From Aptenodytes patagonicus (taxonomy: Eukaryota; Chordata; Aves; Sphenisciformes; Spheniscidae): 64,000 nt of DNA. The DNA lies in contig NC_134975.1 in assembly GCF_965638725.1 (NCBI RefSeq), forward strand, positions 1,128,179-1,192,178, in the 5' to 3' direction. The position numbers and the translations under genes were made by a program. Positions 1,758 to 25,268 of this stretch are shown here, piece by piece (the first letter of the stretch is position 1; each line of letters begins with the position of its first letter). The notes beneath the pieces are model-generated. The model did not search any database. It was not told the DNA's origin and saw only the letters and a list, made by a program, of their open reading frames with translations.

Positions 1758-4700
1758 ATGGAGGGCACGTCGGTGCTCAGCCCCTCCTCGTGGGAGAAGC
1801 GGCGCGCGTGGGCCAGGCAGAGCCGGTGCTGGCGGACCACCGTGGTGGAGGAGGAGGCGGCTGCCGCCATGCAGGACGTCCACGAGCCGCAGCCACCCCA
1901 CCTGGACGACGTCTTCCTTGAAGGTCGGGGGGACCCCGGGGTGCACATGGTTACGGGAGTCCTCGCGTGCTGGGTCGTCTCATGGGTGTTTCTGTCCCCC
2001 CAGGAAGCCCCTCCAGCAAGATAGAGACGTGGCTGCAGGAGTGCGGGTGAGCCGGGGGGCAGGCGGGGGCAGCCTGGGGGTGCCTCTGCCGCGACGCCAT
2101 TCCCACGGGGATTTTGGTGTCACCGCGGGGGCGGCAAGGGCGGTGGGACGATGTTCACGCTTGGCCCTTCCTGGAAGTTGCACCCGAGCAGGCGCGCGGG
2201 TGCCGGCGGGACGACGGCGTGTCCCCCCCCCTCCCCGCTCCCTGCTCGCCCCCGCGCAGGAAGCGCAGGTGGCACCCGGCCGCGGCTCTGCCACATGCCA
2301 GGGCCACCGGCGCGGGGTGCCTGTCCCACGCCAGGCGTCACGCGGGTGCCTCCTGGGAGAAAAACCCCAGCACCATGCCGGGGGGGTCTCCAGGGTCTCC
2401 CGGGGATCTGGGGTCCCTGGGATTGGGGGTCTGCCGAGGGGACCCCCTTCCTGAGCATCCCACCATGGAGCACCTGCCTGCAAGCCCGGCTGCCGTCTCC
2501 TTGCTCTCGCCCTGTGCCCCATCATCTGTGTCCCTGTCCCCACCTCCCGTCCCGTCGTGCTCAGGTCTCCCATCCCATCTCCAGCCCCCCGGCATGGCTG
2601 GGGGCGGGGGGGGCTGTAACCGGGGTTTTGCTCTGACGCAGGTCATCGGTGGAGGTCCAGCCGGAGGAGCTGGGCTTGCCGGGCCCCTTCGGTACGTCGG
2701 CTTTGCCCCCGTGGTTCTCCTGGGGTGCTGAGGCTGGTGGTCCCTGCGCGTCCCCAAAGCCCACCCAGCCCGCGGGCTGTGCGCGAGGTGCAGGGCGATG
2801 GGCAGGGAGGTCTCCGAGGACCTTGAGACCTGTCCCCAGCTCTGGGTGTCCCCGCGCCTCGCAAGGCTTTGCTCTCTCGCAGTGTGTGGGAGCAACGGGA
2901 CCAGCTTCGAGGATGACCTGACCCTGGGAGCTGAAGGTACCAATGAACCCTGGGCGCTCCGGGGTGTCCCCTCCTGCGGTGTCACTGTCACCCCATGGGC
3001 AGAGCTGCCCCGGTGGAGGCAGGGGAGCTAGGGACAGGCAGGATCAGACCCGGGGGGATAGCTACCATCGGTAGCTTTTTCTCCAGGAAGGTTTCGGTGG
3101 GGCTGGGCTGTCCCCAAGCTCTGCGTCCCCCCGGGCTCCGGGCTGTGGCCGCCAGAAAGGACATCTCCCAGGGTGGCGAGTGTGGGACCTATCCCCAAAA
3201 CGCCCCATCTCACTCCCTGCCGCCTCTCTGCTCCCTTTTCCCAGCTCTTCTGCTACCGGGGAGCGACAAGGCCACGGGCAGGTGAGGTTTTGGGTCCCGG
3301 GGGAGGCTGGCGTAGGGGGCTGGGGGCACTGTCCCCGTGCATCCCGCTGGCAGCATCCCCTTCACTCAGCCCCGTCCCTCTCCCTGCCACAGAGCTCTGT
3401 GGAACAAGCACCTCAACCTGGGGCACAGCATGGCATCCAGTGCCCTCTCCAGCCTCACCACCAAGACCAGCTCCAGGTAGGAGCTGGGGGGGGTCTCGGG
3501 GGGGGGGGTGTCAGGTCACCCCCTTGTGAGACCTGTCCCTGTGGGGCTGAGCCGGGGCTGCCCCCCACCCCGCAGCATCTCCGAGGTCCTGGATTGGCGG
3601 CAGGCGGACGCCGAGGAGATCCTCTACAACCTGGGCTTCGTGCAGAGCGAGCCGGGGGCCGTGGCCCGCATCCCCGCGCGTTTCTTCTCGGCTCCTTCCC
3701 GCGCCAAGGGCATCGACTTCCAGCTCTTCCTCAAGGCCCAAGTGCGGCGCATGGAGATGGAGGACCCCTGCCTGATGCTGGCCAGTGAGTGACACCTGGG
3801 TTCCCAAGACCCCGCCCGGGGAGACACCGACACGTGGGATGGGATCCGCCATGCTGGCTGGGCTTTGCCCCTTTGGGGTGGTGGGAAAGATGCTCCCGTG
3901 CCTCAGTTTCCCCATGCATGAGCTGGGGGAATGCACCCAGCCCACCCTGCCCCTGCTGCAGCCCCCTGCCCCATCTCCCAGCCTCCCCGAGCATCCCTCA
4001 CCCCACAGCCCCCCTGACGCCCCCCCCATCTCCTCCTGGCCCCCCAGGTCGCTTCCAGCAGGTCCAGGCTCTGGCTGCCACGGCCGACGCTTTCTTCTGC
4101 CTCTACTCCTACGTCTCGCGGACCCCCGTGCAGCGCATCTCCCCCTCCCGCCTCACCTGGGCTTGTCCCGACGTCCCCGACATCCTCATCGCCCCCACCC
4201 AGCCCTGCACCCTCTCGCCCGTGGAGCGTCTGAAGAAGGCTGTGTCCACCATGTGCCTCTACACGTCCCCGCGGGACGAGGACAGCCCGCGGGGGACTGG
4301 CCGGGCGCCCACCGTGCCCACCGGCCAGCCCAGCACCCTGGGGAAGGTGGTGCAGGAGGTGCTGGAGCGGGCGCGGGAGAAGCGGTTTCGGTTTGACCCG
4401 GCCGATGTCCTCGAGGGCTGGGGAAGGGACGGGGGTGCAGGGACGGTGCAGCACTGGCGGGGAGCGAAGGGGGGTCCCCCAGTGCCGCCGTCACCGTGGC
4501 TGGTGCAGGGTGTCCCTGCGTGTCCCCATCACGGTGCTGCGGATGCCCCAGCGTGCTGCCGAGGGGAGTGGGAGCCGTCCCCGAGGCCAGCCCCAGGGGG
4601 GACGCCGGCGGGTGCTGCACGGGGATGCCTGGAACGGTCCTGTCCCCATGGTCGGGGGAGCGGTGACAGCCCTGCAGGGGTGGCTCAGGGGGCCGGGGAT

Positions 4701-5891
4701 GCTCTGTGCCCAGTGGGAGCAGGACGGGTCAGCACGGAGGAGCACCAGTCAGACGCTGCTGCGAATGTCACCTTGTCCTTGACGCCAGGTCCCCTGTCCC
4801 CCCATGCCGGCCGCGTGTGGGTCACCCCTGAGCACACAGAGGGGCTGGGATCCGAGGGGGACTCCGGCTTCGGCTCCGGCTCCTGGGGGACCTCCCCCAG
4901 GAGGAAGGCAGGGTCCCGCGGGTGCCACCTGGGCGACCCCCTGGACCCCGCTGGGGCACGTTCCCCTGGCTCAGACACACCAAGAGCTGGAAGCCACCGG
5001 GCTCGGCGGAGCAGGGGCCGGCACCGGGAGGGGCCCTTGAGGGATGCCGGGCCGCAGCAGGGGGATGCGCCAGGGCTGCAGCCCCCCGGGAAGGGCCCCT
5101 TGCCCCACCGTCCTGGCTGTCAGGAGCCGGCGGACTCCTTCGAGATGGAGGAGGTGAGGGGCGATGCCCGGGTGATGGGCGCAGAGGGGTGGGGGGCAGG
5201 AGAGGGCTGGGAGCAGGGGGCAGCAGCGCAGGGGGACCCTTTGGCTGGCGGGTGATGCTGGGCGAGCCGGCGTGGGGCGGGAAGGAGCTGGAGTGGGAAA
5301 CGTCCCCGGAGCGTTCTTAGGCTTTTAAGGTTTGAATGATTTAGAGCTTCAAATGGAGCCTCTTGCAGGGGGGAGCTGGGGTCACGGGCACGATGGCCGG
5401 CTCCTGCACACGCGCGCACGCCTGCGTGGGCTCACATATGTGCGCAAGCATCCTTGCACACACACAGGGGTGCATGGCTGTGCACAGAGGCACTGATGCA
5501 CCTCTGCACATGCACACGTGTGCACCGACACACTCACCCGGTGCAGCTCCTCACCCAGCCCTGCTGCATCCCATCTGCAGGTCCTGAGCGCCAGCGAGGA
5601 GGATGATGATGATGGCGATGCCTGTAAGGAAGCCGGCCGGTCCCTCCATCCCTCCGTCGGGGTCCGGAGAAGTAAGTCGTAGGGTTTTCCCGTCCTCCTG
5701 GGGGGCAGAGGGGCGGCCATCCCAGCGGGTGCCCGGTGCCAGTGTGTGTCCCCGTGTCCCTCCGTCCCCCTGCTCCAGGCTTCATGCTGCACGCCAGCAG
5801 CGGGCAGTCTGACAGCAGCGGCTTCGTGGAGGAGCCGGTGCCCGGCCAGCCGCCCGCCGCCCGGCTCCACGGCACCGACCAGACGGTCTGA
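1758..5891 (+). CDS. TESPA1: TESPA1, thymocyte-expressed positive-selection-associated protein 1
   Basis: Adaptor of the ITPRID/KRAP family. In mammals it binds IP3 receptors, PLC-gamma1 and GRB2 and supports TCR calcium and ERK signalling in thymocytes. Coding exons: 1758-1923, 2004-2046, 2642-2691, 2883-2936, 3245-3281, 3393-3476, 3576-3784, 4048-5153, 5581-5671, 5779-5891. They total 1953 nt (650 residues plus stop) and all phases agree. Recognition rests on the N-terminus (VLSPSSWEKRRAW), KIETWLQEC, GTSFEDDLTLGAE, the RIPARFF...KGIDFQLFLKAQVRR block (about residues 180-205) and DAFFCLYSYVS. The human protein is about 521 residues; the excess lies in exon 8, which stays open for 1106 nt, and in the last exon. 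Part of exon 8 (about 4415-4788) is low-complexity and could hide an in-frame intron, since a good acceptor sits at 4786-4788. The last exon encodes an SSGQSDSSGFVEEP tail that I associate with the larger KRAP-like relatives. Identity is firm; exon 8 is less so. Confidence 0.94.
5401..5535 (+). repeat. CA/CG-rich simple repeat in TESPA1 intron
   Basis: A degenerate alternating CA/TG/CG tract lies between coding exons 8 and 9. It matches the style of the larger tracts near 27.3 and 28.4 kb. Confidence 0.6.
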
Positions 5892-6015
5892 GGCCACCGC
5901 AGAAGGACCTGGGCTTGCCCTGGTGCCGGCAGGAGCCACGGCAAGGTGCTGGATGGACCGTACCGTACCGCCATGTTTCGGACACGGAGACCATCCTCAG
6001 CCGAGGGCTGAGCAC

Positions 6016-6097
6016 TGCCTGTACACGTGTGTGTGTGTGTGGGTGCACGTGTGGGTGCGGGTGCACATGTGGGTGCACGTGTGGGTGTTTGGCACAG
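6016..6097 (+). repeat. GT-rich repeat in TESPA1 3' UTR
   Basis: A (GT)n run followed by repeats of GTGGGTGCAC lies inside the inferred 3' UTR, between the stop at 5891 and the poly(A) signal at 6325. Confidence 0.65.
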
Positions 6098-6324
6098 AAA
6101 ACATTTTGACTCAGGACTTTTGCTCCGAGGGGCACGGGCATCCCCCCTCTGCCCAACCTGCTGGTTCTGGGGCCGTGGCTGCACCGGGGCAGCACCGGGG
6201 ACGTCTCCCCCGCGCCTGGCTCTTGGGGACATCACTCGCACTTTGGCCACGGTTGGTCACCCGTGCTGCAGCGCCTGTAACACTAGGACGGGGGTTTGCT
6301 AGGCAGAGCCAGCAGCACGCTGGA

Positions 6325-6330
6325 AATAAA
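6325..6330 (+). terminator. TESPA1: Poly(A) signal of TESPA1
   Basis: AATAAA lies 434 nt after the TESPA1 stop codon and is followed by GT-rich sequence (GGTGGTGCTTGTG). It is the first canonical signal downstream on this strand. Confidence 0.75.
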
Positions 6331-6349: not shown

Positions 6350-9300
6350 TGCTTGTGTCCCTGCCTGGAGCTGCCGGGGGTGTGGGGATCTGGCCCTGCC
6401 CACCCCCTCTGGGGTGGAGACCCCCAGCACGAACCCTCCTGGTACCCCAAAGGGGCCTGAGCTGGGGGGCTCCGCTCAGCTCCGGGTCTTCCCTGGGGAC
6501 AGAGGAGCTACCACCAAGGCTGGGGGGTTCCTGCCCGACAGACCCCATGTGCCATCCCACCCCTGCTCAAGGGCTTGCAGCAGGGCTGGGGACCCGTGGT
6601 GCCCCCCACGGACACGCATGCCCCGGCTGGGGTGCGAGCCCAGGGGTAGGAGTGGAGCAGCAGGTGCTGCTGGGGACTTTTTTGGCCTCTCCATCTTCTC
6701 TCGCCCCTGCTGAGCCTCCCTTCTGTTTCCTTATCGGGGTACTTCATGGCTCCAGGCCTGTTTTTCATCTTCCTGCCACCTTATCTTTCTGGCTCGTTCT
6801 TCTTCCCCTCTGCGCGATCTGGGCATCTGAAGGAAACCGCATCGAGATGATGCTGGGTCTGCGCCGGCTGCTCCTTAACCCCTCCTGCGCTGCTGCCGCC
6901 GCTCACCCGGGCAGGGCACGGGCAGCTTTGTTGGTGGCTTTTCCCCCAGGTGATGTGGGCACCGAGCATGGGCACGGCCCCAAATTGGGCAGTGGAGGGT
7001 AGTGGGTGCTGGTTGGGCACCCCAGCAGCCTCCCGTGGGGCTCACCCTGAAGTGGCCGCAAGCCACAAATTCAGGGTCCAGCTCTGCTCCTGCCCCTCTA
7101 GATCTACCTAGGGGATGGGGACAGGTCACGTCACCCCAGGCCAGAGACCCATGACCTCAGGAAGGAGCCACCACAGTCGCCCTCCTCCCCGGGCTCTCAC
7201 GGTCCCCATCCTGGCTGCCCACCACAGCGGTGGTCCACGACCCTCCGCTCTCGGGTGCAAGGATGGCACCAGCCCCAGGGCATCGGCGCTGGAGTTACTG
7301 GAAAAGAAAAGTCCTGGTGGATAAGCAAACCCCAGGGCTTCCCCGTGGAGAGCAGCCAAAGGCGGATTATCCTGGATTAGCCCCACGGCCCCTCCGGCAC
7401 CAAGGCTGGCTCCCACAACCCATCCTGGCAGCACTGTGGGTCTCATGGCAGGGGACGGTCCCAACCTGCCAGGGCTGCTCCGCGCTGGTTCGGGCTGCCC
7501 AGGGCTGCGCTTTATCCTCCTCCTCGGTCTCTGCAGAGGGGTCCACGGGGGACCCCCCAAACCTGGAGACTCCTGCAAGCTCTGGCAGTGACCCCCAGGT
7601 GCCTTCTCGGTCCCCTGGCTCTGCCCGGCCCCGGCTCATCCGAGAAACACACCCTCCTCTGCCCCGGGATTTGTCAGGCAGCTCCTGGACGGGGCTGTCC
7701 GAAGCCTCCTGAGAAAGCCTTGGTGGAGCACGGCTGGAGCTCAGGACCAGGTTACCCATCCCTGCGGATGCCCGAGGCCAGCCCCACCCTGACGGTGCCT
7801 GCAGGAACCATTTGTCAGACCGAACTGGGACCCGGCTGGAAACCAGTGCACTGAACGGAGGAACCGCTGGGAACAAGTAGCTGGTGATGGGGACGGGGCA
7901 GGGGACACGGCGTGACATCTTCATCCAGCTTTGCTGCCGAACCCAGGGAAACGGCAGCTGCGGCTTCGTCAAATTTCATGCAAATGTTGAAGCCCTCGGT
8001 GCTTCTGAGGCCGGAGCCGGGGGTTTTAGGGCAGAGGTGAATTAACCTGGCGGGATGGAGTACCTTGTAAATGGTACAGCATCAAATTGAAGTTACACTT
8101 GTGCTCCCCAGCCTCCCCACGCCGGGTATTTGGGTATTTTCTCCCCGAGCCAGGATCCCAGCTGCGACCCGCTCCCCCCCGGGGGGTTTTGGTTCCGCAT
8201 CGTGCATCCAGGTGCCTGGAATCCCACCCCGGGGCAGAGCTGGGTGCTCTGAGGTTCTCCCCTCCCTCCTCTTTCCACGGGGAATGAACGTACCCGGCCT
8301 GCGAAGCCAGGTACGCAGCACAAATCCTCCCTCGGGCAATGGGCAGGAGAAATGCATGGAAAATACTGAAGATTTATCCCCTGTCTCTGAAGCCAAGAGG
8401 CAGCGAAGGCTCTGCCTGGGGCCAGCGATGGTGATTTATGGGTGCAAACGGGTAAGTGTCCTCTTCTCTGAGCTCTTGCAAAGAGACTGTGCAATTTCTG
8501 AGACCCCACCTGAGCAGGGACAATGTGATTTTGCAGGTTTTAGACTGAAAATAAAAGACTTGGGACTGTGCAGAGCGTTTAAATTCGGGGATGAACAGCC
8601 CACAGCCCGCCGCAGAAAGAGCTCAGTGCATTCGCTCGCCCAAGGGCCGGAGGAATGATGCCGCCAAGCTGTGGGAGCACCTTCCCACGGGGAGCATGAG
8701 CTGTTTGAGATGGCAGGGAAGCGGCCAGGAGCTGCAAGTGTGGACCATGTCCTACATCTGGGTACGGGTTTGCTACGGGACCCCATCCGCCACCCCAGTA
8801 GCACCCCATCCACACCCCCATCCAGGACCCAGCCTGCTGGACCATCTCCTGGGGCACGTCCCTGGGTGTCCCCCCCCCGCCCGCCAGCCCAGGCAGCTGC
8901 TGTCGGCGCCTCCGCAAAGCTTTCCCTAAAGTTTCACCTAAACCTTTTTCCCGCGTTTTCAGTCTGGAGGTCTGAAACCACCCAGGCGAATCCCTCCCGG
9001 CCGCGCCGTCAGCGCTGTCTGTGCCGGCATCGCGGCGGGTCACGCTCGGCTGCTCCATCCGCCCCGGCCGCGGTGCAATGCCGATGCAGGGCTGTCAAGC
9101 CGGGCTGTGCCGGCACCGCACTTCCCCCCCGCCTTGCATGCCTGGAGAGACATGACATGGCTCCCTCCCTCCCCCGGCTCACGTACGCTCCGGACGGGGT
9201 TTGTTTGCTGAGCAGTGCCGGGGAGATTATTCATCCAGGTTTTTTTGCAGTTCACGGCAGCCTCGGCTCTCCCTGCAGAGCCATGGCTTGTCCTTGTCTC

Positions 9301-9596
9301 GTGCAGCTCGTGGTCCCTCCCGTGCTCCGGCCCATGCCCTTGGCCTCAGAGCACCAACCCCCTTTGGCTCAGCTAATCCCGTTAATCAGTGAAGATGTTC
9401 TGAGCTCAACCCGCATCCCCAAAAGGGGGGAGAGATGCTCTGCCCCACTCACCCCCGAAACGAGGAGGAGCTGGGGCCGGACTGGACCACGAGGATGCTC
9501 CTGCACCATCCCTGTCCCGCTGCCACCTGGTGAGCGCAGCTCTGCCCCAATTCCCAAGCGGAGCCGTCCTCCCCTCCTGTTACCTCTGTGTTTCAG
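6350..9596. other. Intergenic stretch, no gene recognised
   Basis: Unique GC-rich DNA follows TESPA1. A somewhat less GC-rich patch at about 7900-8600 holds a consensus GTAAGT donor at 8453, preceded by an open frame. Another donor (GTGAGC) is at 9530. These could be upstream exons of the terminal exon proposed at 9597, but no protein family is recognisable. I see no RNA gene or transposon. Confidence 0.4.
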
Positions 9597-9790
9597 GGGC
9601 TGCGTGTATCAGCATGACGATCCCCACCATCACCTCCCCCGTGCATCCCCACTCCCTGCGCGGCCAGGACCGGGCTGGCTTCACGTGCCCCTCCGTCTCA
9701 CCAAGCCTCTGCCGTTCCCGCACGTCCCCTCGCTGTCTGTTATCTGTCAAGCGGTGAGAAATAAAGTGCTGGAGCCAAAAACGTGCTCCG
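9597..9790 (+). other. Possible orphan 3'-terminal exon with poly(A) signal
   Basis: A pyrimidine-rich acceptor (CTCTGTGTTTCAG, ending at 9596) is followed by about 165 nt and then a canonical AATAAA at 9760-9765, with a GT-containing stretch downstream. That is the layout of a last exon on the plus strand. One frame is open to a TGA at 9755-9757, almost touching the poly(A) signal, so the exon may well be non-coding. Possible upstream donors are at 8453 and 9530. No homologue is recognised. Confidence 0.35.
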
Positions 9791-9829
9791 TGATGAGCAG
9801 GAAAGGTCTGCGGCTGGGGGGCTGGCGGT

Positions 9830-10010
9830 CGAGGAGCATATAGGGGCTGGGGAGTGAGCAGGGGGCTAGAGAGTGAGCTGGGGGGGGGCTTGGGGAGTAT
9901 GGGGTGCGTGGGAGGGCATGGGAGGCTTGTGGGGTGAACTTGGGGGACTATGGAGTGTACTGGGGTGGTACGGAGCGCACTGGGATGATGCGGAGTGGGA
10001 GCCATGGAGC
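9830..10010 (+). repeat. Degenerate G-rich repeat
   Basis: Irregular units of roughly 16-20 bp resembling GGGGAGTGAGCTGGG and GGGAGTATGGGG. It lies just upstream of the small secreted-peptide gene. Confidence 0.45.
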
Positions 10011-10272
10011 TACACGAGCTGTTGGGGTTTTGAGGACTCAGGAATTGCTTGGCACACGGAGGACCGGGAGCCCTGGGAACGGGGCCGGGGCTGGTTGGGG
10101 TGTTCTTGGGGCTGGCAGCGGGGCCAGCTGTGCTGCCCGGAGGGGCTACAGGGCTAATCCGGGCTAATCCTGCCCCTGGCTGGGCGCCTGGGCACGGGTA
10201 TCTTCCCACACCTGGAAAATCCTGTGCATCCCCGAGCCCTCCCAGCCCTGGCTGATTGATGCCTGCTGCCTT

Positions 10273-10278
10273 CATAAG
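10273..10278 (+). promoter_or_regulatory. Possible TATA-like element of small secreted gene
   Basis: CATAAG in a TTCATAAGG context lies 75 nt upstream of the ATG at 10348. This spacing would give a start site near 10300 and a 5' leader of about 45 nt. It is a weak match to TATAAA and is only suggestive. Confidence 0.3.
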
Positions 10279-10347
10279 GGACAGACCCCAGCCCCGGCTG
10301 ATCCCTGGGTGGCTCCTGGCCGTGCCTGTCATCCGAAATCCTCCGGG

Positions 10348-11411
10348 ATGATGAAGCTCTGGGTCGTCCTGCTGCTGGCCAGGCTCGCCTGCAGCCTGGC
10401 TGCTGGCTGTGAGTCGGGCAGGTCCCCGGAGGGACGCGGGGTGGCACTGGGGTGGTCCCCAGGGGGGTGCGGGAGGGGGGTCAGGCCGTCCAGGCGTGTG
10501 TGTCAAGGGGCTGGGTGCAGAGTGGGGGGTGTTCTGTGCGCGGTGGGGGGTCCTGACAGCCCGCTGAGGTGGGCGATGCCGTCTTTCTTCCTCCTGCAGT
10601 TCCTCTTGATGAGACGCCTTCCGCAAGCTCTGGTGAGTTGGGGGTCCCGCCTGTGAATCCTGCTCACCCGGGGGGGTCTGGTGGCCGGGCTGCAAGGTAG
10701 AGGTTTGGGACCCCCCAAAGACCCCGAGCCCTCCAGGGAACGGCGAGTCTTTGAGGTTTTTTCTCTTGTTCTGAAGGCGGGGTTGTTCCTGGCGGGTGAG
10801 GATGCTCCTGCATCCGTCTCTTCCCTCCAAGGCAGGTGGGGAAGCGTGTGGGTCGGACCCAGAGGGCACAGATGGGGTCTGAGCAGCCCCGGCTGCCTGC
10901 GAACCCCGCAGCAAGAGGCGGCTCCCTCGGGGCCGGGGAAGGGGCCGGTGGCCTTGGCCTGGGTGTCAGCGCAAGGGTCAAGATGTGCCGGGGCGTCATG
11001 GGCCACCGGTTTCGGTGGGTGGGTGGGAGGTACCGTGGGGGGGGATGAGGAGCACCCTGTTAGCGGCACATTGGGGTGCTCGGGTACCCCCGTTTCTTCC
11101 CGCAGATGTTGAGACAGCCAAGAAGGCTGACGAAGGACTGCTGGGCCTTCTTGTTGACATGCTGGACAGACTCTCGACGGCTCTGAATTCCAACCTCATT
11201 GGGTGAGCGGGGAAGGGGGGGCTCTGCCGCGGTCGGTGGGGACAGCAATGCTGCCGCCCCGAGAGGCATCCCCAGCTCCTTCCCACCCGCTGGATGCCGG
11301 TGGGGGAGGTAGTGGGGTGGGTGCTGGGGGGCTGGTTGCGTGCTCCCGTGAGGGTGGGATGGTGGGACTGGGCCAGGTCTCACCTCTTCGGTGTTTTCTC
11401 TCTTCCAGGTG
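10348..11411 (+). CDS. Candidate small secreted peptide gene (~64 residues), unrecognised
   Basis: Coding exons are 10348-10408, 10600-10632, 11106-11202 and the stop in 11409-11411. All splice sites are canonical and phases agree (phase 1, 1, 2). Exon 1 is a textbook signal peptide, MMKLWVVLLLA...SLAAG. The mature part is about 44 residues: an acidic segment (FPLDETPSASS), then DVETAKKADEG, then GLLGLLVDMLDRLSTAL, whose Leu/Val spacing suits an amphipathic helix. Eight acidic and three basic residues give a net charge near -5; there is no cysteine. Exon 4 continues as 3' UTR to another donor at about 11432, and a poly(A) signal is at 12068. I do not recognise the protein. Its size, signal exon, acidic middle and C-terminal helix, and its place beside TESPA1 and NEUROD4, recall mammalian dermcidin, lacritin, GLYCAM1 and MUCL1. 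A role as an antimicrobial, tear or mucosal peptide would be inference only. Confidence 0.6.
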
Positions 11412-11628
11412 ACCAGCGAGCAGCCAGCACAGTAAGTCACTCCCTTCCCAGGGGAGCCTGGGGACACGGGGTGTCCTGTCGCTGGCAGGGATGCAGCTCC
11501 AGGGATGGGGGTTGGGTGGGGGGGTCCTCTCCTGGCGGCACTGGGAGTCCCCACCACCTCCCATGGCTGCCCGGGACCGTGCCCTGCTCCTTCTCTGCTG
11601 GGCACTGAGCACCCGAACCTCCTCGTCA

Positions 11629-11737
11629 TCTCACCAAACCACTCTGCCATCCCACCAAACCACCCTGCCATCCCACCAGACCTCCCCACCATCCCACCAG
11701 ACGTCCCTGCTATCCCACCAACCCTCCCCTGATCCCA
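11629..11737 (+). repeat. 20-bp tandem repeat, about 5-6 copies
   Basis: Units resemble CCATCCCACCAAACCACCCTG. It lies between the stop-bearing exon and the poly(A) signal of the small secreted gene, so it is in an intron or the 3' UTR. Confidence 0.7.
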
Positions 11738-12067
11738 CACCAGGGACCTCCACATCCCTGCGTGTCACGGCGGCTCGTCTGGAGCCAGCGCTGGGCTGGG
11801 AGGGCCGACTCAGAGCAGGTTTTGGGGCAGTGGAGGACCCAGGACTGGCTCCCCCTCCATGGTGCGATTTGGGTTCCCTCCCAGGGCTGGCCACGGGTGC
11901 CAGCGTGCTCCCCGGGGAGCAGGATGCGTCCCTCCTCCTCCTTCTGAACATGCCTGGCTTCTGCACAAGCATCGCGCAGCTCCCTGACGCCAGGTCTGGT
12001 TGACTCCCAGCTCATCCCGTGGCTCTTCTCCCACCACGTGTGTGCATCGCTCCAGAACAAAGCTACC

Positions 12068-12073
12068 AATAAA
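12068..12073 (+). terminator. Poly(A) signal of small secreted gene
   Basis: AATAAA is followed by GT-rich sequence (TGTCTTGTCCTGCCTGGTGTTTGCCTG). It is the first canonical signal after the coding exons at 10.3-11.4 kb. The terminal exon start is unclear; CAG acceptors lie at about 11998-12010 and 12053-12055. Confidence 0.6.
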
Positions 12074-12693
12074 GCAAACCCCCAGTCGCTGCCTGTCTTG
12101 TCCTGCCTGGTGTTTGCCTGTAACCCGTGGCCGTGAGGGACTGAAACCCAGCCCAGCTGTGGTCTAGTCCAGGGTACGATCCTGCTGCCAGATGGAGGCA
12201 GCTGCTTTAGATGAACCGAGTCCCCCCCCCCCGACTCGATTCAGGTGCCCGTGGAGGGGACTGGTGCCAGCTGAGCCCCAGCTACCCATCCCACGTGTCC
12301 CAGGACATCCGCCAGCCCTATAGTCATGGTCTTCGGCCCTTACCCGGCGTGGAGACCACCCCACTGCTTCCCAGGCCTGCTGGCGCCCCTCCAGCTGCAG
12401 GGGCTCAGCTGGATCCAGCTGTGCCCAGCTGTGCCTTTGAGCCTGTCCTGCAAAGACAGACCCCAAGACCCCAGCCCGCAAGACTTCCCTGTCCCCAGGC
12501 TCTCATTCCCCTTACAGGGCTTGGGTGCCGGGCGCTCTCTCCCTCATTAGTGGAGTTCGTTAGCTCCCGGGGCTCTGCCCACCCCCTTCCCGATTGGCAC
12601 CTGCCACTCAGGCGGCGAGGAGTGGGGACAGCATGGGCCTCTCTCGGGGTCCCCACGGTGGTCCCCAGCTCGGTGTCCCCCCCTCCGGCGCAG
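12074..12693. other. Short intergenic gap
   Basis: GC-rich unique sequence lies between the two candidate small secreted genes. I see no exon. It would hold the promoter, and perhaps a leader exon, of the second gene. Confidence 0.35.
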
Positions 12694-13500
12694 GGCCGAT
12701 GATGCTCTGGGGTGTCCTGGTGCTGTGGGCGTCAGTACGGCTGGGACACGAGGTGACGCTGGGCGGCCGGGGGGGTGCGTGGGGACAGGCTGGCCACCCC
12801 TGCCACATCCAGCATCTTCTGTCCTCCTTGGGGCTAATGGCTTTCGCCCCTTTCCCTTCGCTCATCGCTGAGGGGGCGATCACCAGCCCCGGGGGGGGGG
12901 GGTTCCTCCCGCCCAGGGTCTCCTTGTCCCAGGCTGCGGACCACCCTGGCCGTGGCCCCAGGTCCAAAATGCGGCTGTGCCTTCTCCGCCCCCCCCCCCC
13001 CCCCCGCCACACATGGAGGTCCTGTGGGGGCTGGGGTGTCGGATTTGCAGCTCTGACACCCCCCGCTCTGCCAAAAACCTGCCTGTGGCGGGGCTGGGGG
13101 GGGGGGGGGGGGGGGGGGGGGGCTGCCTAGTTGCCATGGCAATGGGGATGATGATGGCAGCTCCGTGGGAAGCGGGTGATCTTCCCGGGGATGGGAAGGG
13201 GGGGGGAAGGGAGGGAGAAGCTCTGTGAGTCGTGGGATGCTCTGGAGAGAGACGGCTCCATCCGGGAGAAGCCTGGAGCGGTCTTGAGAAGGGCTCCGCG
13301 GGGCGCAGCTTTTAGTTGCACCCCCCCAAAATCCGCGTGCAACCAGGACCCGGTGCTGAACCAGCGCTTCCTGCCTTCCAGCTTGGGAGACCAGTGAGAA
13401 GAGTCTCATGGCTTTGCTTCTGCGTGGAGGACGGACAAAACCTGGTCGCCCACGACCGGCTCATCTCATCTCGCCACCGGTGGTAGGATGCCCTAAATGA
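12694..13500 (+). CDS. Second candidate small secreted peptide gene, possible tandem paralogue
   Basis: An acceptor at 12691-12693 is followed by two adjacent ATGs at 12699 and a signal-like peptide, MMLWGVLVLWASVRLG. At the DNA level this closely matches the signal exon at 10348 (ATGATG, CTCTGG and GTCCTG in the same order). A GTGCGT donor after 12774 leaves phase 1, as in the first gene. An acceptor at 13379-13381 opens an exon at 13382 in the same phase: AWETSEKS then LMALLLR, against DVETAKK...LLGLLV in the first gene, with a stop at 13498-13500. The joined model is 64 residues (25 + 39). A poly(A) signal follows 36 nt after the stop. The tail (GGRTKPGRPRP) is basic, unlike the first gene. 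An alternative donor at 12753 and missed exons are possible, and it may be a decayed copy. This model is speculative. Confidence 0.33.
12893..13122. repeat. Long C and G homopolymer runs
   Basis: A G run near 12893, a C run of about 17 near 12990-13006 and a G run of about 27 at 13096-13122 lie within 230 bp. Such tracts are prone to sequencing error and to G-quadruplex or hairpin formation. They fall in the inferred intron of the second small gene, so any length error there would not change its reading frame. Confidence 0.8.
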
Positions 13501-13535
13501 ACGATTTTTTTCCCCCCCGATAAACTCCTTCTAGG

Positions 13536-13541
13536 AATAAA
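13536..13541 (+). terminator. Poly(A) signal following second small gene
   Basis: AATAAA lies 36 nt after the TGA at 13498-13500. It supports 13382 onward being a true last exon on this strand, though a chance hexamer cannot be excluded. Confidence 0.4.
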
Positions 13542-14734
13542 CCCAGCACCTCCTGGAGCAGGCAAATGCCTCATCCCCGTGCGAAGAGCTGCCTCCTCCT
13601 CCTCCTCCTCCTCCCCTCGGCTGGCAGCTCTTCCTCCAGCTGGGCGCAGGGGTGCGTGCTGCTGCACACATCTCACCACCGCCTCCCTCCTGGCATTTCT
13701 GGGCAGCTTTTTGAGTAAACAAAGCTTTTTTTTTTTTTTTTTTTTTGGCACGGTTTTGCAGGGGAAAGGTGCGTCGTGCAAGCGCATGGGAGCTCTCAGA
13801 TGGCGAAGTCCACCTCCGAGCTGGCCAAGGGAAGCGTTGGGGGGGTGGATAAATATATGCAGTGACAACTGCAGCGGCCACCTCCGGCTTCCCACCGCAG
13901 GTGAGATAAATCTCATCTTAAAAAACAGCTTTTTTTTTTTTTTTTCCTCCCCAGGAAAAGGCTCCTGGCGGGGACGCTGAGAGCTGGGACGCGGCGGCGC
14001 TGCCGCTCTCTGCAGAGTGGGATGTCCCCAGGGAGACGGCACAAGTTATTCCTGACGGCTCCTTGCCCCGTAATTGTTCCCCGAGGTGGGTTGGTGCGTT
14101 ATTAGCGTTGGATTTGCCGGGGACGGAGTGGAGCTTAAATTAGACTCCGGCTGACAGAGCCCTCCTGGGTTTGTGCCGGGCCGTGTAATCCGGCGTGAAA
14201 GTCTCGCTTGTGTTTGCCTGTCGCACAAAGCGAGGTGTGGCGTTGTCCCTAAACCTCGAGAACTGACCTTAAAAAGGGACCTGTTTTTGGCTGAGCAGAA
14301 AACCTCTGAGCGAGGATGCTCGGGGCAGCAGGGTCCCGGCTGGATGTCGCCGCCTGGGAGCTGGTGACCCCAAAAGACTGTGGGGTCCCCAGTAACTGGA
14401 GTGGGGGGCACTGGGGGGTACTGCAGCTGGGGACCAACCTCCATCCAGCACCTCTGAGGCTTCAGGGCACCTTTTCTTCCAGATCTGAAGCATCCGTAGG
14501 CAGGAGATGGGCATGGATGCGGTCCCAGCTCGCAGAGGGTCTTTGGCTCTCCATCCTTTTGAGGAGCAGGCAGACGGCATCAGGAGACGCCGCGGTGTCC
14601 CAGGACGTCGCCTCTCGCTCCGATCCCCTCAGGAGCACCCGCGGCTGCAGCCTCCACATGCAGTTTGAATTCGGAGCTTGGAGCCGTGCTGCGCCTGGAG
14701 CCGACCCAGCTGTCTGGGAGACGTCACCGCGATT

Positions 14735-14885
14735 ATTTCAGTTAACTCAATTTACTGCTATTACTGTCAGCCGGACCTAACGACCCGACACGGAGCAGCA
14801 GCCCTTAGGGGACCCATTTCTAATTAATTTTAGCTCATAAACTAATTAATGGATTTACTTGTAAATTCTCAGAAAATCCATGTTC
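14735..14885. promoter_or_regulatory. AT-rich island with TAATTA sites, candidate enhancer
   Basis: Within GC-rich surroundings this patch holds two TAATTAAT blocks, about 20 bp apart around 14820-14850, plus GTTAACTCAATTTACTG. The core TAATTA is the binding word of many homeodomain factors. Candidate regulatory DNA by composition only. Confidence 0.3.
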
Positions 14886-15688
14886 CCTGCAAGGAGCGAC
14901 CTTTTCTCCCTAGGGAGGCCGGGCATCCTTGGGGATGCTCTGCTCTGACCCTGGCGAACGTCTCCCTCTGTTGCTCCTCCAGCAAAGTCGTCCCTCGGCT
15001 GGATCCCGGTGCCCGCAGAGGTGCCCGGGCTCCTTTTCCCCGGGGATGCTTTCCCTGAGCCGGCGCAGACCCGTGCAGCCCTGCCGGGGATGCCGGCAAA
15101 TCTCCACGCCTGGGTCGGGGCCAAGCTGGACCAGGTGCCGTAGCGGCTCCTCGGCGCCGTCGGTCCTGGGGGACGGTCCAGGGACGCTCCAGGGGGACGG
15201 CAGCCCCGGCTGCGGAGCCGGGGAAGAGGGGGCGGCAGCTGGGCGAGGAGGTTGCCAAACGGGCAGAGACAGCGGCTCCCGGCAAAGCCGTGCCCGCAGC
15301 TCAACATCTGGGGCCCGTGGTCGCCGTCCAGGCAGCAGTGCCGCCGCCTGTGCCAAGGCATCTTCCTCCTCCTCCTCCTCCTCCTGCAGAGCCTGGCCGG
15401 GGCAGGGGGACCCGAGACAAACTTCCTCCAGCCTCTGGGGACTTTGGGGCAGGCTCCGGGCAGACCCCAATAGGCTCTTTGCTGGGATGAATCCGGTCCC
15501 AAGAGGCCAGGACCACCTTGCCGATGGCCGCACGGGGTCCTTTTGTCCCCACCCTGAGGGTTTAAGGGGTAGAAGTGGCCGCAGACAGCAGTGGGGGGGA
15601 GCCTGGGGCTGCTGCGGGGTGGCACCCAGGGATGCGGGGCTGTGCGGTGCACAGGGCAATGCCCATCCCAAGGTCCTGGGCCCTGGGG

Positions 15689-15851
15689 CTGTGCTGTACC
15701 CCATGTCCTGGCACCCCAGATCTGTCCTGCGACCCCAGGGCTGTGCTGTACCCCATGTCCTGGCACCCCAGATCTGTCCTGCGACCCCGCTGTGCTGTAC
15801 CCCATGTCCTGGTCCCCCCAGTCTGTCCTGTGACCCCAGGGCTGTGCTGCC
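15689..15851 (+). repeat. 52-bp tandem repeat, about 3 copies
   Basis: Units begin CTGTGCTGTACCCCATGTCC at 15689, 15741 and 15790, with a partial copy from 15842. Spacing is 52, 49 and 52 bp. The first two copies are nearly identical, so the array is recent or homogenised. Confidence 0.85.
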
Positions 15852-18039
15852 TCCAACCCCACACAGCGGAGGACGCACAGATTTGCACGAGCCCTCCCGC
15901 TTGAGGGCCTCTGCATGAACAAGCTCACGCTTCCCCCAAATTTGTGGTGACGCCCGGACGTGGGCCCGGTGAGCGCCCCGAGCGGGACGTGGGGCACCCT
16001 GCGGGGCTGTCGGCTGCTGAGGTTTCTTACCAGCAGATGTCAGCTCCCGCCCGGGGATGCGTGGCCGGCGCTCGCCCGGCTCGGCTTCTGGCTCTGCACC
16101 CTCGCACACGCGTGTGGCCGGGCTGTAGCCTTCCTTGGGGGGTGACAGTCCCTGGGGGCAGCGGGGTGACACGGCGGTCCCAGGGCTGTGTGTGCCATCA
16201 CCGCTACAGCAACCCGGGACAGCCCCCGGCTCTTCCTCCGGGAGCTGTGCAGCTCCCGTTCGCGACCTGGGCCCGTTGGGGTCTGCTCTCCAGTGGTCAT
16301 ATAAGAAAATATCTCATTATCAAAATTTGGGTGTGCAGGGGAGGGGCTGGGTGCTGTGCTGAGCACCCCGGGGAGTTTTGCAGCAAGCAGAAGAGCAACG
16401 GTCCCGCTCGCAGGCAGCCTGGGTGGTGGTGGGAGGGCGAAGGGCTGCCCGGGGCTGGAGAGCCCCCGCAGAGCTGTCAAGGAGTGATGGAGCGGGGCTG
16501 GACCGGCACCCCCAGCCCTGCAAGCAGCCCCCAGCCCGCGAGCAGCCCCCGGCCCACCAGCAGATGTTGTCCGAGCCTGCGAGGGCCAGGAATCCCCTCT
16601 GCTGAATTATGCCAACCTTCATTGAGATGCAAAGCAGGGGCCGGGGACGCCACACGCCAACTGCTCGTCCCAGGCACCCTCAGCCCCGCTGCGGATCGGG
16701 GCTGCACCCCCGGTTTGACAGTGCCCTCCGGGGCAGCTCCGTGCAGGACCCGCCGTGTCACGCTGGCTGCCCTGAGCGTGGGGACCCCCAGGGACCCTGC
16801 CCGGCATGTGCATGCGTGGGGCAGGGGGAAGGGGACGTGGCAGGCTGGATCCTGCTCCTCAGCAGCCGGGTTCGTGCTGCTGAGCCCACCCAGGACGCCC
16901 CCGCTACGAGCCTGCCGGTGCGGCCCCACTCCCAGTAGGAAAAGCCCCTCTCGGGGCTGAGCCTTGGGGGGGGGTTTCTGCCCCAGCAGCGCTGGGGAAA
17001 AGGGTCTTTCCCCACTCTGATAAACCCTTTTCTGGACAAGGTGCTGGGCATTGCACCCCTCTCTTTTCCAGAAAGCTCTGGCGACGGGGTCCCCACCGAG
17101 CCGTGGGGACGTCCTGGCTTCACGCGGGCTGATGCACCAGGCGACAGCACGGCTGGGGTGTCACTCGCTGTCCCCTGCGTGCGATGGAGACGTCTCCCTT
17201 AAACAGGGACCGTCTCCAGCGTCCCCCAGCTCCAGGGTGTCCCCAGCCCTGCTCTTGGGAGGAGGACGCCTGGGCATCCCTGCCAGCTCCACGGGGCCGG
17301 AGGCAAGCGGGAGCGAATCTGGGCTCTCCCAGCTGTGTCCGCAGCCGCCGCGTCCTGCGGGCAGCCAGGAGCCCAGCGGGCCAGCAGCCGCTCTGGGAAC
17401 AGCTCCTGCGCTGAACGGGGGGCTTGCTCCCGGGGGACAGCGGGGTTGCGGCCCTTCCCTCCCCGCTTGCCGGGGGTGCTTGAGCCCATCTGTGCCTCCC
17501 GGTCCATCTGGGCACTTCGCCATCCCACCCCCACCTGCCTCCTCGCCGGGGAGCAGCCCTGGGCTGGGCAGAGGGAAACTGAGGCAGGGAGCCATGTGAG
17601 AGGCTCGGCCCCGAGCACCTCGAAGCATCGGGACACACTGGGTGCCCCGTACTCTGTGCCCCACACCTGGGGGTTTTGGGGAGCAGGAGGCAGCCAGCAG
17701 GCAGGAGGAGTGCTGCAGCGAGGGCTGGGGACGCGGCTGGTCCCCACAGAGTGTCCCCAGCCCCTGACACGTCCCTTCTCCAGCGCCAACAGCCATCAGG
17801 GTGGTGAAACACCCTCTGCAGCCAACTGGACCCCGTGGTTGGGCCACCAGGACGGTGCCCGTCGGGCTTGGGAGACCCCTAAACCTGAGCTGCCGGGGGA
17901 CCCCAGGGACAGCGTCCCTTTGTCACAGCACCCCCGTCGCCTCTCCCCGGTGCCACCATCGCTCAAATTGACAAACACGGGTCAGCGAGCGCTGGCCGTG
18001 GCCCCCCTGGCCCCCCGCCACCCCGCCGGGCCCCCCAGC

Positions 18040-18255
18040 CCCTGATTTCTCTTTAATTGCATTCCCCAGTGTCATGCAAATCAGCCGTCCCGGGCGCAGC
18101 TGCCGGGATTAAATTAGAACCCGTTAATACGCGGTAATTGCGTTTCCGCACAGGCCCAGGAATGCCGGCCCGGGCGCAGGGGCGGTGGGCGCCCGGCACC
18201 GGGGCGGCAATCGGCTTTCACAATATTTACTCTGGCAATTACCCTCCCTTCCAGG
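18040..18255. promoter_or_regulatory. AT-rich island with POU octamer and E-box, candidate enhancer
   Basis: It contains an exact octamer ATGCAAAT at 18074-18081, a CAGCTG E-box at 18097-18102, and GATTAAATTAGA, GTTAATACG, GGTAATTGCG and GGCAATTACC words. POU and proneural bHLH sites occur together in many neural enhancers. It lies about 3 kb upstream of the NEUROD4 first exon. Inference from motifs; no conservation data. Confidence 0.35.
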
Positions 18256-18454
18256 CTGCGGCCCCTCCGAGGCCGGGAGCTGGAAAGGGGATTAGGGGAT
18301 GGAGACAAACGCTGGGGTGGGGGGTGGTGGTCTGGAGTGCTGGTGGGACATGGGGATGAGCTCCCCCCCCCTTCTCATCATCCCCAAATTTTCCCCCTTG
18401 TTTGTGCCCTGCCTGGAGCAGGGGGGTGGTGGCTTCATCCCCTTTCCAGGTGGA

Positions 18455-18530
18455 GCATCACTGAGGTGGAGCATCCCAGGGTGGAGCAGCATCAAGGTAG
18501 AGCAGCATCAAGGTGGAACACCCCAAATCT
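18455..18530 (+). repeat. Short ~18-bp tandem repeat
   Basis: About four units of the type GGTGGAGCAGCATCAA. No functional signal seen. Confidence 0.6.
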
Positions 18531-19854
18531 AGCTCCTTTTGGCAGGTCCTGCAGCCATTGGGAGGACTGCTCCAGGTCCCCCCGAAGTCCCCCACATCGC
18601 CCCAGCCCCGCCGGGATTGTGGCTTTCCCCCCCCGCCGTCGCAGCCCCAGGACGTGGAGCATCTCAGAAGGATGGTGCTTTCAAGGGAGGTTTCCTTGCA
18701 GAGCACCAGGGAAGGGCCACAGGGTGAGGGACATCTTGTGTGTCACCAACAGATGGGGGTAACGTGGACAAGCTCAGGACCTGCCACATCTTCTCTAGGT
18801 GTCACGGGGACGGTGCAGTCTGTTCCTCACGGGCTGCACTGCTCAGAGCCCTGCAGCGGAGAGGGAAACTGAGGCTCGGGACGAGAGGGCAGGGGTGGGA
18901 ACATGCAGGGTGACAGGGACCCAAGCCATGCCCCTGAGCTGAGATGGGTGTGGGGTAACGAGCCGGTGTCTGGAGCCACAAGTGCCCGGGGAATGGAGAG
19001 CTGGGGAGGGATGTGGGGGGGTGGGAAGGCAATGGGGGGGACGGGATGAGATGGGGGGGACCTGCAGGGGATGGGGGACCTGAGGGGATGACCCCTGAGA
19101 GATGGAAGGGTTAAATGGGGGATGGAGGATGCCTGGGAGGGATGAAAAGACACCATGAGAGGGCTACGCAGGGGGCATCGAGGAGGGGGGGCACAAGGAA
19201 AGGACACATGGGGGTGGGAGGGTGGGAGGCTCCTGGGGTGGGCACAGCTTGGGGTTTGGGGATCACCAGCGCAGCCCTGGTTTGCCGGGGGCTGGATGTG
19301 GGGCTGAGCCCAGCTGGTAAATGGTAATGCCCGGCTGCGCTTCCCTCCCGTCCACCTCGGAGACTCCCAGCGCCCACCCGGGATGGGGCAGGGGGGCTGT
19401 GCCTCCACCCCAGCCAGAGCCCCCCCCCAGCCCTGTCCACCGAGGTCCCCGTCCCGGGGCTGCGGTGCCCATCCCCGGGGCTGGCGATGGAGGCGGGAGC
19501 GGGAAGGTTGAACATCTTGCGAGAGCAGTCCCGGGGGGCCAGAGCCGCCCGTAACCCCAACAGATGCAAAGCCCCCGCACAATGGGATTAGCGAGCGGCA
19601 CGTGGCCGGGCGCTGAAAGGCAGCAGGGCCGGCAGACAATGTGCCCGCCATCGCCCCGCTCGCTCCCGGGGGGTCACTCACGCTCCCGGCATCCGGGGGC
19701 CACCGCCGGCTCCCGGGGGAGGTTTCGCTGTGTCCCCACCCACCCCCCCCCCCCCCCGGGCGCCCACCGGCCTCTTTGTGCGGGTGCCCGGACCTGTTGG
19801 AGCCATCTGTCAGGGAGGGGACGAAGCCGCCGCCGAGCCGGGCAGTGTGGCAAC

Positions 19855-20015
19855 AGGCAGATTTATTGGCCGCAATCTGTTCCTGCCTGCCCTGCCCATC
19901 CCAGCCTGGCGGTGGGAAGTAAGCCATGAATCCACTAATGAATTAATTAGTATTCCCTGTAATCCCAGGCTGCCAGAGACATGATTGCAAACGCTTTAAA
20001 TTAATGTGAAGGGTC
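19855..20015. promoter_or_regulatory. AT-rich island with homeodomain and OTX/CRX-like sites
   Basis: It holds ACTAATGAATTAATTAGT (near-palindromic), TAATCC at 19960-19965 (the core word of OTX/CRX factors), GATTGCAAA and TTAAATTAATG. It lies about 1.3 kb upstream of the NEUROD4 first exon. NEUROD4 is known to act in retina, where CRX and OTX2 operate, so the match is suggestive. Not proven. Confidence 0.35.
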
Positions 20016-20254
20016 CTGCGGGCTGGCGCGTGCGGGGAGGCTCCCACGCAGCGATGCTGAGCTCTGGGACCAGAGTCATGGCGGGGGGGGGGGAATGACT
20101 TTTGGGGTGCCATCGCCGTCCCTTGCTTCCAGCCCCGCTGCCGCAGAGGGTCCCAGCCCAGCCCCTTCCCCAGGCTGGGCGGCTGCAGCCCCTGCAGTCG
20201 GAGGAGCCGAGCTCCAGGTCTGAGGGGCAGAGCAAGGCGACCCGTAACGCCCGT

Positions 20255-20420
20255 CCCTTAATTAATGGGGGATCTTTTTCCATCGCCCCCTCTCGCCGGC
20301 CGGGGGCTGTGGAGCCTGGGGCCCCTTCCCTTGTCTGAGCGGCGGAGAGCTCAGCCGGGCCCCTTCTGGCCGTACCAGCCACTAATTACTCCCCCTTTGC
20401 TCTCTCATTACAGCTGGGAG
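20255..20420. promoter_or_regulatory. Candidate regulatory patch with TTAATTAA, TAATTA and CAGCTG
   Basis: CTTAATTAATGG lies near 20258. TAATTA at 20383-20388 is followed closely by CATTACAGCTG, with the E-box at 20411-20416. It is within about 1 kb of the NEUROD4 first exon. Confidence 0.3.
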
Positions 20421-20692
20421 GGAGCCGCGGCCCCCGCGCCCACCCCCAGCACCTGGGTCGGAGCCAGCGTCGCCCAGGGCCTGGCCCCCCCGGCTCTCCC
20501 CAGCACCAGCATCACCACGGCAGTGCCCGGCCAAGCGCGGCAGCGGGTGATGACGCCCGAGTCTGAGACCCCGGCAGCCCTGTGTCACTGTCACATCATG
20601 GTTGGCTGTGCCCCGTCGGATGGGGACTCCCTGGGGGACTCCCCCCGTGGAGGGAGCTGTGAGGCAGGGTCTGTCCTGGTGCTGAGCAAGCT

Positions 20693-21165
20693 GGGATGGA
20701 CGTCCAGGGGTGCCCATCCAGGGGTGCCCACCTAGGGGTGCTCATCTAAGAGTGCCCATCCAGGGGTGCTCATCCAAGGGTGCCCACCCAGGGGTGCTCA
20801 TCTAGGGATGCCCATCCTAAGGTGTTCATCCCAGGGTGCTCTTCCAAGGGTACTGGTCCAGGGATGCCCATCCAGAGGTGCCCATCTAGGGGGTCCCCAT
20901 TCAGGGGTGTCCATCTAGGGGTGTGCATTCAGGGGTGCTCATCTAGGGATGCCCAGCCTAGGGTGTTCATCCCGGGGTGCTCATCCAGGGGTGCCCATCC
21001 AGGGATGCCCAGCCCAGGGTGTTCATCCCGGGGTGCTCATCCAGGGGTGCCCATCCAGAGGACCCTGGCCAGCATACCCACCTGAGGATGCTCGTCTAGG
21101 GGCACCCATCCAGGGCTGCCCAGGGACCGGGGATCCCCACCCGGGGGCACCCATCCAGGGATGCC
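20693..21165 (+). repeat. Minisatellite, ~13-28-bp units, directly upstream of NEUROD4 exon 1
   Basis: More than twenty degenerate copies of the word GGGGTGCCCATCCA or GGGGTGCTCATCTA run without a break. Higher-order copies include a ~55-bp repeat beginning GGATGCCCAGCC near 20947 and 21003. The array ends within about 250 bp of the NEUROD4 first-exon donor. Confidence 0.9.
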
Positions 21166-21179
21166 CGGGGTTGCCGTCG

Positions 21180-24272: not shown

Positions 24273-25268
24273 ATGACCAAGACGTATGCCAAGCCCAAAG
24301 AGATGGCGGAGCTTGTGAGCGCCCAAGCTTGGATGGACGAAACGTTGGGCTCCAAAGATGAGCTGAAGGAAGAGGACAGCAGGCAAGGTCCTTTTGGATT
24401 GATGTCTGGCTTGAATGAAGAGCACGACAGCATCGAGGAAGAAGAGGAGGAAGAGGATGATGGGGAAAAGCCGAAGAGAAGAGGACCAAAGAAGAAGAAA
24501 ATGACCAAGGCGAGGCTGGAGCGGTTCAGGGCCCGGCGGGTGAAGGCCAACGCCCGGGAGCGCACGCGGATGCACGGTCTGAATGATGCTCTTGACAACC
24601 TGAGGAGGGTGATGCCCTGCTACTCCAAGACTCAGAAATTGTCCAAGATTGAGACACTGAGGCTTGCAAGGAACTACATCTGGGCTCTGTCTGAGGTGCT
24701 CGAGACGGGGCAGACTCCTGAAGGGAAGAGCTTTGTGGAGATGCTCTGCAAGGGCTTGTCCCAGCCCACCAGCAACCTGGTGGCTGGCTGTCTGCAGCTG
24801 GGACCGCAGACCTTGTTCCTGGAGAAGCATGAAGAAAAGTCCCCGGTGTGTGAATCGGCCATATCCAGCCACTCCTTCAGCTACCAGTCCCCAGGGCTCC
24901 CAAGCCCACCCTACGGGACCATGGAAACACATCTGCTGCATTTAAAGCCTCCGACCTTCAAGAGCTTGGTGGATGCTTCCTTTGGAAACCATCCCTCTGA
25001 CTGCACCACTCCCCCCTATGAGGGTCCCCTGACGCCGCCCCTGAGCATCAGCGGGAACTTCTCCTTGAAGCAAGATGGGTCTCCAGACCTGGATAAATCC
25101 TACAGCTTCATGGCCCACTATCCCTCAGTCAGCCTGGCTGGAGCACATGGACATGCCTCTCACTTCCAAAACACAGTGCCCCGCTACGAGATCCCCATAG
25201 ACATGAGCTATGAGTCCTACCCACACCACGTGGCCGGGCCTCAGCTCAACGCCATCTTCAACGAATAG
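24273..25268 (+). CDS. NEUROD4: NEUROD4 (NeuroM/ATH-3), neural bHLH transcription factor
   Basis: A single uninterrupted coding exon of 331 residues, the same length as human NEUROD4. It is a nuclear bHLH activator that pairs with E proteins on E-boxes and drives neuronal differentiation in neural tube, retina and cranial ganglia. The N-terminus [11 protein letters not shown] is diagnostic. A glutamate-rich stretch (about 55-63) precedes a basic nuclear-localisation patch (KRRGPKKKK, about 69-76). The bHLH spans about residues 87-141, with [12 protein letters not shown] as the basic region and [14 protein letters not shown] as helix 2. A NeuroD-family domain follows, ending ...QLNAIFNE. The start was chosen from the family N-terminus; an acceptor lies 9 nt upstream. 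The frame is intact. Confidence 0.98.

Follow-up and report, generated by a model that had tools for sequence, protein, structure and literature searches.

A candidate secreted-peptide gene next to TESPA1 in Aptenodytes patagonicus, a possible positional counterpart, in sauropsids, of the mammalian GLYCAM1-LACRT-DCD-MUCL1 cluster

Mammalian peptide genes beside TESPA1

In mammals, genes for short secreted peptides of tears, sweat and milk are gathered beside TESPA1, and we take the human order to be PPP1R1A(-), GLYCAM1, LACRT, DCD, MUCL1, TESPA1(-) and NEUROD4(+). The activity of lacritin is commonly placed in a C-terminal helix. MUCL1 and DCD share one locus at 12q13 that adjoins lacritin (PMC3688712), and the human region orthologous to the koala MM1 locus is described as containing DCD, LACRT, a GLYCAM1 pseudogene and MUCL1 (PMC5054531). 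In pig, PDE1B, PPP1R1A, TESPA1 and NEUROD4 are placed within one association region, the source giving no order for them (PMC8227816). The hydrophobic coiled-coil of dermcidin (residues 80-103) is thought essential to its antibacterial function (PMC4353460), and antibacterial activity of cow GLYCAM1/PP3 is cited as well (PMC5054531).

Dermcidin, lacritin, MUCL1 and GLYCAM1 have so far seemed lineage-restricted and devoid of outgroups; for DCD, Southern blotting is reported to have found no homologues further afield than the New World monkeys (PMC4353460). A study of hawk and caiman tears enters lacritin under human only in its table of the most abundant glycoproteins (PMC8656020). Among the matches listed in the open PMC literature, neither a bird or reptile member of the cluster nor any of four literal pieces of the peptide described below was found. 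A predicted "uncharacterized LOC" record for the gene may well exist. What is new here is its place next to TESPA1, the home of the mammalian tear, sweat and milk peptide genes.

Gene model and its standing against chance

The window analysed is a stretch of 64,000 nucleotides from the Aptenodytes patagonicus assembly GCF_965638725.1, within which an earlier note had proposed a gene for a small secreted anionic peptide. Its exon boundaries, canonical splice sites, matching phases, stop and poly(A) signal were all confirmed (Table 1). The coding sequence runs from exon 1 through exons 2 and 3, and the exon at 11409 supplies the third base of its last Gly codon and the TGA. All introns are of the GT..AG type, with the successive donors GTGAGT, GTGAGT and GTGAGC, and the exon lengths give intron phases of 1, 1 and 2. 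The predicted protein has 64 residues; with a cut after Gly20, the mature part comprises 44 residues, carries a net charge of -5 and contains no Cys. The proposed signal peptide and anionic, Cys-free mature peptide are thus upheld as sequence and prediction, and the proposed leucine-patterned helix stands as a prediction from its hydrophobic moment and from AlphaFold2.

Table 1. Features of the candidate gene and of its neighbours, in window coordinates unless otherwise indicated.
Feature	Position	Strand	Remarks
PPP1R1A	4.7-9.4 kb left of window	-	three tblastn pieces, E 5e-12 to 1.5e-4
TESPA1	1770..6330	+	human TESPA1 query matches across 1770-4385 by tblastn, strongest pieces at E 6e-29 and E 5e-28
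TATA-like element CATAAGG	10273..10279	+	75 bp 5' of first ATG; read in the sequence, putative promoter role
Exon 1, coding part MMKLWVVLLLARLACSLAAG	10348..10408	+	predicted signal peptide; phase 1 end; hydrophobic-core score 2.52
Exon 2, FPLDETPSASS, 33 nt	10600..10632	+	phase 1-1; short acidic linker; acceptor 6.36, donor 6.57
Exon 3, DVETAKKADEGLLGLLVDMLDRLSTALNSNLIG, 97 nt	11106..11202	+	phase 1-2; predicted amphipathic helix; acceptor 6.34, donor 2.39
Exon 4	11409..12085	+	last Gly-codon base, TGA 11410-11412, 3' UTR; 3' limit approximate
Poly(A) signal AATAAA	12068..12073	+	G/U-rich stretch behind
NEUROD4	24273..25265	+	human NEUROD4 query by tblastn: 81% across 331 residues (E 8e-166)
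ENDOU	39.7-41.6 kb	-	tblastn with human protein
RAPGEF3	57.8-59.7 kb	-	tblastn with human protein
HDAC7	~129-134 kb (right flank)	-	tblastn

Splice sites were scored with weights taken from general splice-site frequencies. On this scale the first and third donors are unremarkable, scoring 1.8 and 2.39, levels reached at about 2.2 and 1.6 sites per kb, and the exon 4 acceptor scores 11.14, a strength equalled about 0.07 times per kb. Between 11471 and 12050 there is no acceptor scoring above 3, so exon 4 probably extends to the poly(A) site and the GTAAGT at 11432 is probably unused, giving a gene of probably four exons. Removal or retention of the last intron leaves the protein and its stop identical. 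A variant joining exon 2 to exon 4 would encode 97 residues and lack the helix; its splice sum is 25.87 versus 21.07 for the described form, and splice-site sums by themselves therefore fail to favour the helix-bearing form.

The combination of signals was compared with chance by a scan of both strands for an ATG with a signal-peptide-like start, two introns, an open frame no shorter than 55 residues and an AATAAA at most 1 kb from the stop, its thresholds being the observed values, fixed post hoc after the gene had been chosen. In the 17.8-kb interval from TESPA1 to NEUROD4 (6401-24200), the + strand yields four models of the observed strength and the - strand yields none; the four are two adjacent ATGs, each combined with the described and the exon-3-skipping forms. 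When the interval was simulated 1500 times with an order-3 Markov model (both strands), an equally good model with a poly(A) signal arose in 0 of the 1500, and none was present on either strand of 246 kb of real flanking DNA, which includes real genes. Without the AATAAA requirement, the strict thresholds gave 0 of 400 simulations and two flank starts, and looser ones 37 of 400 and ten.

It might be argued that there is no protein gene here, the signals having been assembled by chance or belonging to a non-coding transcript. Open frames abound in GC-rich DNA, two looser threshold sets that kept the poly(A) signal were satisfied by 2 and 23 of 400 simulations, with 3 and 12 starts passing them in real flanking DNA, and the coding sequence as a whole has a codon score of -1.4, which is not coding-like under a table trained on seven exon pieces from neighbouring genes. 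Under the same table, however, the predicted frame of exon 3 has the highest score of its six frames, a value that 1.0% of the open non-coding frames (14479, overlapping) also attain. With this and the absence of comparable models from the simulations and flanks at the observed strength, a chance assembly or a non-coding transcript is very unlikely, and the candidate is very probably a real gene. The GC content of exon 3 carries little weight: the lowest-GC 97-bp window within the gene begins at 11104, two bases 5' of the exon, and 10.7% of the 97-bp windows across the interval are equally GC-poor.

The helix prediction was approached in two ways. The hydrophobic moment of GLLGLLVDMLDRLSTAL, a segment picked post hoc, was equalled by 23 of 20000 shuffles on the Fauchere-Pliska scale and by 381 of 20000 on the Eisenberg scale, the corresponding counts for a 31-residue stretch being 128 and 625 of 20000. 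AlphaFold2, run on exon 3 alone from the single sequence, returned one helix spanning residues 2-31 of 32 with a mean pLDDT of 94.5; since helical peptides readily give confident single-sequence folds, this is support that stops short of proof. The candidate is accordingly predicted to possess an amphipathic alpha helix of the host-defence-peptide type.

Copies of the gene were sought in the penguin's own 1.35-Gb assembly (618 contigs). Among the best candidates, to which scoring was confined, three matches appeared: two are the exons of the candidate itself and the third is at chance level (E 4.77) and has an internal stop. The gene is probably single-copy. Downstream, the stretch 12699-13541 begins with an exon-like start, ATGATGCTCTGG (MMLWGVLVLWASVRLGHE at 12699), that resembles the beginning of the gene at 86% across 28 bp (E 0.07). 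Its donors are weak (1.31 and -0.04), acceptors lie at 12933 and 13382, and an AATAAA is present at 13536; two spliced readings of the 12.7-13.5 kb stretch matched no NCBIfam family. Decay or divergence of a tandem duplicate may explain this stretch, or the likeness may be due to chance. A 21-bp tandem repeat of 5.4 copies lies at 11616-11729, within exon 4 and the 3' UTR.

Position and kinship of the candidate

Protein queries placed by tblastn over 264 kb set the candidate among its neighbours, 6 of the 15 queries matching at E<=1e-3 and 9 having no such match; pieces of VDR, ITGA5, GTSF1 and COL2A1 found no match within the 264 kb. The placements give the order PPP1R1A(-), TESPA1(+), candidate(+), NEUROD4(+). 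The TESPA1 coding sequence ends near 5.9 kb, as judged by eye, with an AATAAA at 6325, and its 3' end faces the candidate, which begins about 4 kb 3' of that poly(A) signal. The gene thus lies beside TESPA1 and within the PPP1R1A...NEUROD4 stretch, the same place as the mammalian cluster, whose order is in part presumed. The model also has the build of a short precursor with few exons, namely 64 residues, a signal-peptide exon and four exons in all, its secretion being predicted.

Relative to NEUROD4 the candidate is on the opposite side of TESPA1 from the mammalian genes, and an inversion has to be assumed. With the human order given above, a single inversion of the block formed by the cluster and TESPA1, between PPP1R1A and NEUROD4, yields the penguin order and keeps the gene at the 3' end of TESPA1. 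The koala account calls MM1 "upstream" of TESPA1 (PMC5054531) and the candidate is downstream, a mismatch unless scaffold direction was meant.

PDE1B, which we presume to adjoin PPP1R1A in mammals, was queried as a left anchor and gave 32 matches in the genome, none of them on the window's contig (C27); the best of these, on contigs C6 and C2, possibly belong to other members of the PDE1 family. Relative to its mammalian place, PDE1B has been moved, lost or is absent from the assembly. To the right, ENDOU and RAPGEF3 come after NEUROD4, with HDAC7 beyond them outside the window. In human these three presumably lie some 7 Mb from NEUROD4, and the arrangement indicates a rearrangement relative to mammals between NEUROD4 and ENDOU.

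The earlier note had matched the peptide to no family that it could name, and this was borne out for Pfam, for PDB sequences and for the prokaryote-centred NCBIfam library. The 64-residue model matched 0 Pfam families at E<=10, and hence neither GLYCAM1 (PF05242), dermcidin (PF15291) nor MUCL1 (PF21823). As controls, cow GLYCAM1, human DCD and human MUCL1 each found their own models (2e-62, 8.2e-49 and 1.4e-42), and LACRT fell below the cut-off of every model. PDB sequences returned nothing useful, the sole hit being a designed enzyme (E 5.9); NCBIfam returned no family, and Rfam on 9900-14000 nothing useful. GLYCAM1, LACRT, DCD and MUCL1, searched by tblastn, gave only chance-level matches in the window (GLYCAM1 E 0.94; DCD 0.32 and 0.49) and none at E<=1e-3 in the window with its flanks. 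Secretoglobins, apolipoproteins C and A-II, BPIF and SFTA2 were set aside on general knowledge of these families, no likeness having been noticed.

Pairwise alignment against shuffled sequences was more graded. The whole candidate aligns best with GLYCAM1, at a score reached by 7 of 500 shuffles (cow) and 11 of 500 (mouse); for LACRT, DCD and MUCL1 the counts are 50, 89 and 126 of 500. When only the mature part is aligned, no cluster member does better than shuffles, the best being DCD at 76 of 500, with GLYCAM1 at 175 of 500 (cow) and 170 of 500 (mouse). The GLYCAM1 likeness appears to reside in the signal peptide, a region in which secreted proteins resemble one another even when unrelated. 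Among the mammalian proteins, LACRT-DCD and LACRT-MUCL1 whole alignments reach scores found in 0 of 500 shuffles, and some accepted members also fail each other in their mature parts (DCD-MUCL1 457 of 500, cow GLYCAM1-MUCL1 300 of 500). Likeness is patchy among the mammalian members too. The candidate is not filed as GLYCAM1, DCD or MUCL1; its position makes it a probable counterpart of the cluster in sauropsids.

Comparison with individual members shows both sides. GLYCAM1/PP3/lactophorin, together with marsupial VELP, is likewise a short secreted precursor, with a human pseudogene in the TESPA1-orthologous region and four exons (PMC5054531), the number in the candidate model; it is also free of cysteine (PMC5944991), as is the candidate's mature part. 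It differs in being known from mammalian milk and in its 141-164 residues in eutherians (PMC5054531) against 64 here, and PF05242 is not matched. DCD and LACRT resemble the candidate in their neighbouring locus, short length, secretion and a C-terminal part thought to be active (for DCD, PMC4353460). Their sequences are longer, however, at 110 and 138 residues, and PF15291 is not matched. MM1, a marsupial milk protein, is likened to the candidate by description and not by sequence: it is a peptide of 98-99 residues of no known family, lying about 8 kb from TESPA1 beside a LACRT/DCD-like gene and from this context suggested as a member of the cluster (PMC5054531). Dermcidin and lacritin had been invoked earlier as functional analogies. 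The location at TESPA1 lends that likeness positional support and suggests a possible kinship by position, which the analogy had lacked; the sequence itself is no proof of homology, the mature part aligning no better than shuffles.

The same data could describe a secreted-peptide gene of independent sauropsid origin, a generic amphipathic surface peptide that sits beside TESPA1 by coincidence. The mature sequence shows no significant similarity to the cluster and no family match, and new short secreted genes are frequent. Such a coincidence would nevertheless have to hit an 18-kb place in a 1.35-Gb genome, at the same 3' end of TESPA1 as the mammalian cluster (orientation presumed), and produce four exons and a helical end, so an independent origin is unlikely. 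The data show the gene model, the position and the predicted helix, whereas expression, secretion, homology and activity are inferred. We prefer, with a probability of about 0.5, a real protein gene, probably present once, that corresponds by position to the GLYCAM1-LACRT-DCD-MUCL1 cluster in sauropsids and encodes a gland-secreted precursor with an active C-terminal amphipathic helix. Tentatively, a founder of the cluster would already have adjoined TESPA1 in the ancestor shared by mammals and birds; the candidate would be what survives of it in sauropsids, its product being released by one of the avian glands (ocular, uropygial, oviduct, crop or skin). If this is true, the bird gene is an outgroup for the cluster, the founder predates lactation and sweat glands, and the cluster of tear, sweat and milk peptides was not invented by mammals. 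The candidate names a short peptide to be sought in avian gland secretions, and its locus allows a direct test of the origin of the milk and tear peptide group.

Proposed secreted helix and further observations at the locus

As a counterpart of the cluster, the precursor would be secreted by an epithelial gland and would consist of a signal peptide, a short Ser/Thr/Pro-acidic linker and the C-terminal amphipathic helix as its active part. The linker would be disordered and possibly O-glycosylated, and the helix might or might not be released by a cut near Lys37-Lys38. It could then bind lipid surfaces or membranes and serve surface protection, either antimicrobial or film-stabilising, in the way attributed to the C-terminal regions of dermcidin, lacritin and GLYCAM1/PP3.

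The same residues could also belong to the precursor of a regulatory peptide. Cleavage behind Lys37-Lys38 and amidation at the expense of the C-terminal Gly would then give a 25-residue helical amide acting on a receptor. The translation does place KK at residues 37-38, an acidic linker ahead of it and a Gly right before the stop. KK is generally a weaker processing site than KR, however, no family is matched and the locus favours exocrine peptides, which together make a receptor ligand very unlikely.

Other features of the region were noted in passing. A minisatellite of imperfect GGGTGCCCATCCAGGGGTGCTCATC-like units, recognised by eye, occupies 20690-21110, before the CpG-rich stretch upstream of NEUROD4. 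At 46428-46484 on the - strand there is a signal-peptide-like start of 19 residues, possibly the first exon of ENDOU. In the right flank, a second bHLH-like stretch at window coordinates 115876-116070 matches NEUROD4 at 45% over 66 aa (E 1.6e-10).
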